A stretch of 64,000 nt of DNA from Gemmatimonadota bacterium. GTDB lineage: Bacteria > Gemmatimonadota > Gemmatimonadetes > Gemmatimonadales > Gemmatimonadaceae. The translations under genes and the position numbers were made by a program. Positions 3,290 through 57,870 of the stretch are shown piece after piece. Below the pieces are notes generated by a model. It was not told the origin of the DNA. It saw only the letters and a list, made by a program, of their open reading frames with translations, and searched no databases. Numbering within the stretch: position 1 is the first letter of the stretch; the number at the start of each line of letters is the position of its first letter. Location of the stretch: the NCBI GenBank assembly GCA_040388625.1, contig JAZKBK010000001.1, positions 558,001 to 622,000 on the forward strand, in the 5' to 3' direction.

Positions 3290-3693
3290 AGGTGGCGGCT
3301 GAGGCCGGCACGTCTGCGGGAAAACCATCGTTGTGAAGGAGACGACACCGGCCGCCTCGCACGTCGCCATGCAGCCGAAGACCGGGGCGCATGGTGGACC
3401 GGCGGCTGGCGTGGCTCGCGGGCGAAGGCGTCCAGCGACCCGCACGGAGAACGTGGCGGGTCATGTGTGGGTCCAGCCATCGCCGCATCACTACACACGA
3501 CATCGGGGGCTTTCCATCGGCTCGTGTTGGCACCAGCGGCGCGACCGAGATATGGGCCACTTGCCGGAGAAGGCACCTCGATCAGGCGTTCGAGATCCAT
3601 CAGCAACTAGCCAGTAAAGCGCCGGCATCTGTAGAAGATATGCGTATAATATGGATTATGTAAACTAGATAATGTGGGAAATGTGGGAAAACC
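3290..3693. other. gene-free stretch of about 400 bp
   Basis: No family-like ORF is visible on either strand. The left part (to about 3620) is GC-rich with several self-complementary blocks, for example GGCGGC/GGCCGG near 3294-3310 against CCGGCCGCC near 3349-3358. The right part (3625-3690) is AT-rich with TATAAT at 3645-3650 and two copies of ATGTGGGAA. I found no match to RNase P RNA, tmRNA, SRP RNA or tRNA signatures. A structured ncRNA or remnant sequence is possible. Confidence 0.4.
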
Positions 3694-25840: not shown

Positions 25841-25848
25841 GCAGTGTA

Positions 25849-55490: not shown

Positions 55491-55949
55491 TTAGCGCGGC
55501 AGTGTGATCGCCTGATCGGCGATGACATGCGGGAATCCAGCAACGGCACCAGCCTGCACCACGCGAAGGTACGACACCGTCGGAGGCACGCCAAGAGATT
55601 TGACTGTGAAGGCAAAGGTTGCCAAAGCCTGCTCACAGGAAGCGCCTTTAGGAACCGCAGACTGAGCGACCAGGCTAATCGTTAACGTATCGGCGGCGAC
55701 TGCATCGGTTGCCCCAATTTCATAGCACGGCGTTGGTGTCATCAGTGTGCTCGATACGGTCACCGTTGATCGAGTCAATTGGACAACAGGAGCACTGGGC
55801 GTGAAACTTGATGATGATGGTTGCGGCGTAAATGAAATCGTTGGCGAATGTGGATCTGTTATTCCCGAGCATGCAACAAGACCCGCCACCACAAGCGCGG
55901 CACGGCAACAGACCGGCAGCGCAGTCGTCGTATGATACGCTTTGTTCAT
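55491..55949 (-). CDS. small putative lipoprotein, function unknown
   Basis: 152 residues from ATG 55949 (GGGGG 5 nt upstream, against an unsupported ATG at 55961). The signal has a lipobox, VAGLVACSG, so it is probably lipid-anchored. The mature part is Ser/Thr/Pro-rich, then a beta-rich domain containing PTPCYEIGATDAV and ASCEQALATFAF, two Cys that could pair. It resembles no family I know. It lies downstream of the decayed protease gene with its own start. Confidence 0.55.
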   Translation of the reverse strand: MNKAYHTTTALPVCCRAALVVAGLVACSGITDPHSPTISFTPQPSSSSFTPSAPVVQLTRSTVTVSSTLMTPTPCYEIGATDAVAADTLTISLVAQSAVPKGASCEQALATFAFTVKSLGVPPTVSYLRVVQAGAVAGFPHVIADQAITLPR

Positions 55950-55993
55950 TGAGACCCCCATGCAAGGAAACGACTTCGTACTAAAGACCTTCC

Positions 55994-56996
55994 TTAGGGA
56001 ACAACGGCGTATAGGAGCCGATTGTTATTACCACTCGGCAAACCGATGATGACGTTCTGAGTGCTGCCGTTCAACGTTTGGCTATACACCGCAGACGATG
56101 ACATCGTAGGGTATTTCGAGAGCAACGCCGCTATAAATCCGGATACATAGGGCGCGCTGAATGATGTACCATTAGCTTGTTTCCCGTAACCGGGATTGAG
56201 CTGATCGGCCACCGATACCCGCACGCCCGGTGCCCAGATGTTGATCGTTGATCCAGAGTCGGAAAACGACGCATACGTGTCGTTGGTTGGATCGGTCGCG
56301 CCGACAACCAACTCGAGGTTGGCACGGTTACCGCGATCCAAATAGGCATTGGCTGAATCGTTGCCCGCCGACTTGACGAATGGGATGCCAGCTCCGGTTA
56401 CGTTATTGATTGCGTCGCGAACTGCGAATGCGCTCGGTATACCTCCGAAGCTCATGTTCGCTACTGCTGGCCGCACTCCAGAGTCGATGATGTAAACGTT
56501 AACACCGTAACCGTCAAACGAACCCGCAAATGTAAAGGTCGAATCGAGCGGCAAATACTGTTGGTCGATCCGATCGAGGCCGACTCCTGGATTGTACTGC
56601 GCGTTATCAGGACGCACAATCATATCCGGTTCGACGTACGCCACGGCGGGATCCGCTCTAACCTTACCTACCCCTGCCGCCGTTAGACCGTCCACGGCGT
56701 AGCCGTGCAGTGCGTCATAGACGAAGTGTAATCGACCGCCGCCTATCGCCAGTAAATGACTCACGTGTCGCGTCGTCGCCGCGGCGCTGGGCGCCGAGTC
56801 TGACCGGAACACAATGATGTAGCTCCCCGGGATCGTATCGCCGCGAGCGGCCTGGATCGACGCAGAAGGCACTGGCGGAGCTAAAGGCGATGACGGGTCC
56901 GTACACGCTGTAGCCAGAACGATGACGCCGCCGAAAAACGAAACTTCGTTGCCTGCTGGATTTACGACCTCGGGTCGTTGCAGAAGTGGTAAACAT
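55994..56996 (-). pseudogene. decayed S8 subtilisin-like lipoprotein protease
   Basis: An I9 inhibitor-like propeptide (IPGSYIIVFRSDSAPSAAAT... to AYVEPDMIV) is followed by GLDRIDQQYLPLD and the Asp strand VNVYIIDSGVR, which runs directly into PAVANMSFGG. In S8 enzymes about 70-80 residues with the catalytic His motif GHGTHVAG lie between these strands; here they are absent. The oxyanion Asn (KSAGNDS) and the Ser motif (GTSFSAPYVSG) remain. Reading from ATG 56996 gives MFTTSATTRGRKSSRQRS, but the lipobox stretch GGVIVLATAC is in the next frame; one base too many or too few in the A5 run at 56934-56938 (T5 on the coding strand) would join them. The remaining ORF starts only at GTG 56872 and lacks a signal. 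Confidence 0.78.
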
Positions 56997-57000
56997 ACGG

Positions 57001-57369
57001 TCAGCGTGCCGTTTGGCGAGAGGAGTCAATTATTCCAGAGCTGCGTGCGTGAAAAAAAAGTATCTCCGCCAGTATCGAACGAAATTCCCTTTCCTTGGCG
57101 GTGTGCCAGAAATCGTCGAATCGGCCTAGCTTGCCGCCAAGCGCGTACACAACAACGAGTAACACGATTATCCCGGCTATGAGCCAGGCCGCCGGACTCG
57201 ACAGACGCTTATGTACATCATCCTGGTGGCGCGAGGGCGAGAGCGCGTTGGGATCTGTGCCCTCTCCCACGACGTACGTCGTCTTCTCGACCGCATCGGC
57301 GCCGCCCAACGCCGTCTCCGAGTCCACGAATTTCGGATCGGGATGATCGTTCGTGGACCCTGTTGCCAT
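57001..57369 (-). CDS. small single-span membrane protein, function unknown
   Basis: 122 residues. A charged, acidic N-terminal half (PDPKFVDSETALGGADAVEKTTYVVGEG) precedes one membrane helix at about 59-80 (AWLIAGIIVLLVVVYALGG) and a basic C-terminal tail. I recognise no family. It lies 37 nt after the sdhB remnant's original stop and just before the protease gene, so it may have been part of a succinate dehydrogenase cluster. Whether it is still functional is unclear. Confidence 0.55.
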   Translation of the reverse strand: MATGSTNDHPDPKFVDSETALGGADAVEKTTYVVGEGTDPNALSPSRHQDDVHKRLSSPAAWLIAGIIVLLVVVYALGGKLGRFDDFWHTAKEREFRSILAEILFFHARSSGIIDSSRQTAR

Positions 57370-57406
57370 CTTGCCGCCCCGTGTGGAGGCTAGGGTGTTC
57401 TCATGC

Positions 57407-57820
57407 TCAGTCGATACCCGAAGTGCGTGCCGACGCGGCGACGTAATCGCGGTCGATCTGCTTGATCACGTCGAGGCTGATCTCCTTGGGGGCACGCTTC
57501 CTGACACTCACCGAACCACGAGCAATTTCCGAACCCTTCGACATCCATCTGCTCGACCATGTCGATCACGCGACGGTCGCTCTCGGGCTGACCCTGCGGC
57601 AGCTTGCCAAGATGGGTGATTTTGGCTCCCGTGGACAACGACGATGACGCGTTGGAGCAGGCCGCGACGCATGCCCCACAACCTACGCAGGCCGCGGCAT
57701 CCATTGCATGGTCGGCGCTGGACTTGCCGATCGGGATGTCGTTGCCATCCGGCGCACCACCGGTGCTCAGGCTCACGTAACCACCGCGCTGGATGATGCG
57801 GTCGCGTTGGAGCCGCACGC
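57407..57820 (-). pseudogene. sdhB: truncated and frameshifted succinate dehydrogenase iron-sulfur subunit
   Basis: The fragment opens with [24 protein letters not shown] and contains [16 protein letters not shown] (4Fe-4S) and [14 protein letters not shown], the second half of SdhB/FrdB. The N-terminal 2Fe-2S domain is missing; the DNA ends at about 57820. After ECQEACP the frame runs into [11 protein letters not shown], but one fewer G in the G5 run at 57488-57492 would restore [20 protein letters not shown], ending at TGA 57407. Two independent lesions suggest a remnant. No sdhA or sdhC is in the window. Confidence 0.82.
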
Positions 57821-57837
57821 ATTGGACCGATAAGGAG

Positions 57838-57870
57838 TCCGTCCCTACTCCGTCCCTATCCCGTCCCCCA
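57838..57870. repeat. three tandem 11-nt repeats at the sdhB/oxidase boundary
   Basis: TCCGTCCCTAC, TCCGTCCCTAT and CCCGTCCCCCA in a row, immediately before the stop codon of the small membrane gene and about 18 nt from the broken end of the sdhB fragment. Position suggests a recombination or slippage scar. Confidence 0.75.

Follow-up and report, generated by a model that had tools for sequence, protein, structure and literature searches.

A probable recent pseudogene of a secreted S8 protease, lacking its catalytic His segment and its in-frame export start, in a Gemmatimonadota genome

Introduction

When a gene recognisable as a member of a protease family is found without the segment that should carry one of its catalytic residues, it has to be asked whether the gene is broken, whether its product has been turned to some other use, or whether the sequence itself is at fault. 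This question is raised by an open reading frame on the minus strand of a Gemmatimonadota bacterium, at positions 55994–56872 of the 64,000-nucleotide stretch of contig JAZKBK010000001.1 that was analysed (here called the window, in whose numbering all positions are given unless stated otherwise). The original prediction, made from the letters of the sequence, was that a subtilisin-like gene had lost its catalytic His segment by an apparent in-frame deletion and its signal peptide by a change of frame, and that these two lesions argued for a pseudogene; a deliberate pseudo-protease inhibitor and a sequencing error at a homopolymer were named as alternatives.

Gene layout and domain content

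The frame opens at a GTG and encodes 292 residues, comprising an I9 propeptide and the remnant of an S8 catalytic domain (as judged from the ORF, Pfam and alignment). Without a stop, the same frame reaches back to 57025, making 344 codons including the stop, and is bounded on its 5′ side by a TGA at 57028–57026; this upstream extension (56873–57025, minus strand) contains a lipobox (LATAC) but no ATG, GTG or TTG start. Downstream of the remnant lies a small ORF for a lipoprotein of 156 residues (55491–55961, minus strand). The idea of a conserved S8–lipoprotein pair was rejected, as distant relatives of the lipoprotein elsewhere do not adjoin S8 genes.

The Inhibitor_I9 propeptide domain occupies residues 17–87 (56612–56824, minus strand) and is complete, the Pfam match covering profile positions 1–80 of 82 with a score of 25.8 bits. 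Relationship to peptidase family S8 is given by a significant match to PF00082 (Peptidase_S8), which scores 66.2 bits (cut-off 21.8), although the match covers profile positions 111–269 only. The catalytic Asp is present in its DSG/DTG motif (VYIIDSGVR, aligned with relatives), and the C-terminal part of the S8 domain (55994–56473, minus strand) retains both the oxyanion Asn (SAGND) and the catalytic Ser (GTSxxxP, here GTSFSAP), just as had been predicted. What the remnant does not contain is the catalytic His in a GHGTH-like motif that would be expected of an active S8 peptidase. A single-sequence AlphaFold model of the remnant had a mean pLDDT of 30.4, and no conclusion as to fold is drawn from it.

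Among known systems the closest is the proteinase K/aqualysin-like type of S8 protease with an I9 propeptide (PF00082 plus PF05922), the best solved match being aqualysin I (4dzt). The remnant shares with this type the I9 propeptide, the VYIIDSG Asp strand, the PAVANMS strand and the SAGN and GTSxSAP motifs, and its C-terminal part can be aligned with aqualysin I through to the end; it differs in being without about 80 residues, including the catalytic His (GHGTH), and without an in-frame signal peptide.

The missing His segment

In the remnant the Asp strand VYIIDSGVR abuts PAVANMSFGG with no interval between them, and this direct join, on which the original prediction had rested, is confirmed both by the ORF and by alignment of relatives. 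The alignments place the junction approximately at 56471–56475 (minus strand), within DSGVR/PAVANMS. When 48 non-redundant full-length relatives were aligned with the remnant, the missing stretch, with the catalytic His inside it, came to 77–91 residues (median 80) and appeared as one clean gap, with the retained parts aligning well on each side; an in-frame deletion is thus what alignment to S8 relatives finds, as had been supposed. These 48 were drawn from related genomes and picked for carrying the His motif, so the presence of the His was checked separately, by way of the spacer between the flanking motifs. Both flanking motifs were readable in 34 relatives, and in every one of these the spacer measured 78–92 residues and contained a GHG[ST] His motif, including three that the regular expression missed, where the residue following HGT/HGS differs but the His motif is there all the same. 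L110 and L112, the intact relatives nearest to the remnant, keep the His interval and match PF00082 from end to end. In the alignment with 4dzt the gap begins immediately beyond the Asp strand and closes at about chain position 120, GHGTH lying inside it near position 70.

As to how such a deletion might arise, the nearest intact relative (L037/L110, in genome G130) has the sequence ATCCG at both of the sites equivalent to the join, which lie 246 bases apart and share a codon phase. This observation belongs to a relative at about 45% identity rather than to the parent gene. A collapse between short direct repeats of this kind at the ends of the interval may have produced the deletion; it would give an in-frame join of exactly the form DSG(I/V)RPAVAN(L/M)S, and with the loss in frame of some 80 codons the stretch bearing the catalytic His has gone, along with part of the S8 core.

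The lost start and export signal

At the 5′ end, the probable former start codon is an ATG at 56994–56996 (minus strand), which no longer shares the frame of the protease; its frame parts from that of the lipobox and protease near a run of five T (56934–56938, minus strand), and here too the original prediction, which had put LATAC and the ATG at 56996 in different frames across the T run, proved accurate. Over the 51 codons that precede the GTG at 56872, the protease frame offers no ATG, GTG or TTG. From base composition alone such a lack has P = 0.14, and only the lipoprotein signal that relatives have at that place gives the missing in-frame start any weight: a loose motif search found a start made up of Met and a lipobox in 36 of the 48 relatives. 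The open frame from 57025 also contains VIVLATACTDPSSPLAPP, similar to the lipoprotein start seen in relatives (e.g. LAACVDPSAP in L040). In an exported lipoprotein the lipobox would share a frame with the start codon and the n-region, and in the remnant it does not. A one-base frame difference, separate from the deletion, severs the start codon and the n-region of the signal peptide from the lipobox and from the rest of the frame.

With the in-frame start for the signal gone, and the His segment lost together with some of the S8 core, it is very unlikely, to judge from the sequence, that either protease activity or export remains.

Search for the short form in relatives

No intact short His-less relative was found among 60 near-relative, 179 family-level and 395 phylum-level genomes (these samples partly overlap), and no short I9 form without a protease was found conserved among relatives in the same samples; in the congeners G001, G002 and G003 there was no ortholog of the remnant at the thresholds used. 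A scan of genome contigs yielded one distant full-length relative, from Chloroflexota, while S8 genes in plasmid records were only distant ones, at under 60% identity. The genome that carries the remnant has further S8 genes with recognisable triad motifs.

The only hit found to span the gap was an S8 relic in another genome (L038:1380-2430, in G199). It resembles the remnant in having a deletion between the propeptide and the C-terminal half, and in having a nearby position, with long branches, in the tree; it differs in that its deletion is another one, with the Asp strand lost as well as the His segment, and in that its frame is interrupted by an in-frame TAA. As a candidate for the same short form it was rejected on both these grounds, and going by its sequence it is a separate S8 gene, broken independently, in a divergent part of the family. 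The tree, which was built from the C-terminal half, places the remnant in this divergent part together with L038 and the intact L110 and L112, the long branches leaving the exact branching order unsure.

Age of the lesions

Some indication of age comes from the strongly conserved positions, at which the remnant deviates in 26 of 88 cases, as against 29 of 88 for L110 and 32 of 83 for L112. Since the retained parts are no more eroded than in these intact sisters, the damage is read as recent, which refines the idea of a pseudogene as it was first put forward. In a neutral-decay simulation, the probability that 292 codons stay free of stops was 0.55 at 0.03 substitutions per site and 0.07 at 0.15; the stop-free frame only bounds the age, and would fit neutral drift of as much as a few percent. 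It must be remembered that the comparison of conserved positions offers no positive evidence that selection has long been relaxed, which fits a recent loss but fits continued use too. Either the lesions are recent or the remnant is under some constraint, and it is recent lesions that we favour.

Genomic surroundings

The remnant lies in a segment of about 9 kb (55357–64419; G000:C1:613357-622419) that here splits dcd from a small minus-strand ORF and the sdhBA operon. In the congener G001 and in G005 dcd directly adjoins the small ORF and the sdh operon, and the segment is absent at that place; in G002 the contigs end exactly at the dcd/small-ORF junction (end of L080 and start of L081; C25 and C21). 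Both of these contig breaks fall within copies of the GTCATTCCCGCGAAAGCGGGAATCCA repeat.

On one side the segment is bounded by a degenerate duplicate of 548 bp (57257–57804, minus strand), which takes in the 3′ end of sdhB and the beginning of the small ORF that follows, and matches G000:C1:622548-623071 at 84.7% DNA identity; its sdhB part is truncated at the 5′ end and contains a one-base frameshift. Beside this duplicate, at 57834–57869, there is a sequence of about 35 bp (gggacggagtagggacggactcc-like) that is dispersed widely in this genome and in those of congeners. The segment also holds the small lipoprotein ORF, a divergent cytochrome oxidase cluster, only 64–68% identical to the clusters of congeners, and a large ORF that, by eye, looks like a PQQ-dependent dehydrogenase. 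The S8 frame has a GC3 of 0.62, compared with 0.76–0.85 in the core genes that were measured, in keeping with an accessory gene.

Weighing the explanations

The best explanation of this locus is a recent pseudogene of a secreted, lipobox-bearing S8 protease of the proteinase K/aqualysin-like type with an I9 propeptide, for which we would put the probability at roughly 0.83. At least two inactivating lesions absent from relatives were looked for, and the deletion and the frame difference are two such; in what order and by what cause these came about, and that function was lost with them, we infer. Also counting in favour of a pseudogene are the lack of an ortholog in the three congeners searched, the other S8 genes of the genome with their triad motifs, the adjoining sdhB duplicate, itself truncated and frameshifted debris, and L038, an instance of independent breakage in another divergent relative; counting against it are the facts that the deletion is in frame and that 292 codons contain no stop. 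That the lesions are artefacts of the assembly, a homopolymer error having arisen at the 5′ end and a collapse of consensus or of mixed strains having produced the deletion, is unlikely. The genome is admittedly a draft in 22 contigs, and the lesions were called from the assembly. However, only 18 indels separate the window from the congener G002 over the roughly 53.6 kb where the two align, at some 95% identity. Two patches, at 3290–3543 and near 33.7 kb, hold 14 of these in DNA that does not code or aligns poorly; the other four comprise three of 9 bp and one of 2 bp, at 25847, near the 5′ end of a gene. With hardly any gene-breaking indels over this distance, a homopolymer sequencing error in the S8 gene is improbable, and the original suggestion of one was rejected on this count, the more so as such an error leaves the deletion of about 80 codons unexplained: the deletion, within a contig of 781 kb, brings two aligned blocks together with the frame preserved, which a homopolymer error cannot do, and a single gene would need to have suffered two unrelated errors.

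Somewhat more unlikely again is a functional pseudo-protease or I9-type inhibitor, in which the I9 domain and the catalytic remnant would bind proteases or other partners. The complete I9 domain would suit this, as would the in-frame deletion, the stop-free 292 codons and conserved residues eroded no further than in the intact sisters, and functional S8 pseudoproteases are known, for example CspC of C. difficile (PMC6636752). What CspC and CspA have in common with the remnant is membership of the S8 family with an incomplete triad, but in CspC the subtilase fold is complete, triad residues being substituted (T170, G485; PMC6636752), and its role is conserved, whereas the remnant has had a core segment of about 80 residues excised and belongs to no conserved family. 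The deliberate inhibitor of the original prediction has in fact fared poorly, its short architecture having been sought in the 60, 179 and 395 genomes and found in no relative; moreover start and signal peptide are out of frame, and the Asp, Asn and Ser motifs, useless to an inhibitor, are better read as leftovers. A subtilase form without a signal peptide is also known in SBT5.2(b) of Arabidopsis, which resembles the remnant in this respect; it is made from a different transcript of one gene and, unlike the remnant, retains the full set of Asp, His and Ser (PMC5074803). There is a very slim chance that a His-less S8 protein was newly born and put to use in this one lineage, with its I9 domain inhibiting, say, the cell's own S8 proteases. 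Hardly credible, finally, is a rescue by recoding, in which slippage on the T run, during translation or transcription, would link the ATG and lipobox frames and so yield an exported His-less lipoprotein; the frames do part near the run, and the rejoined N-terminus would be plausible as a lipoprotein signal, but five T make a short run, the arrangement occurs in no relative, and the product would still be without its His segment.

What the locus represents

Read as a recent pseudogene, the locus represents no protein of a new kind, only the ordinary loss, within an accessory segment, of a gene for a secreted protease. It also carries a warning, in that annotation pipelines would label the frame of 292 residues an S8 peptidase despite the absence of both its His segment and its export signal.
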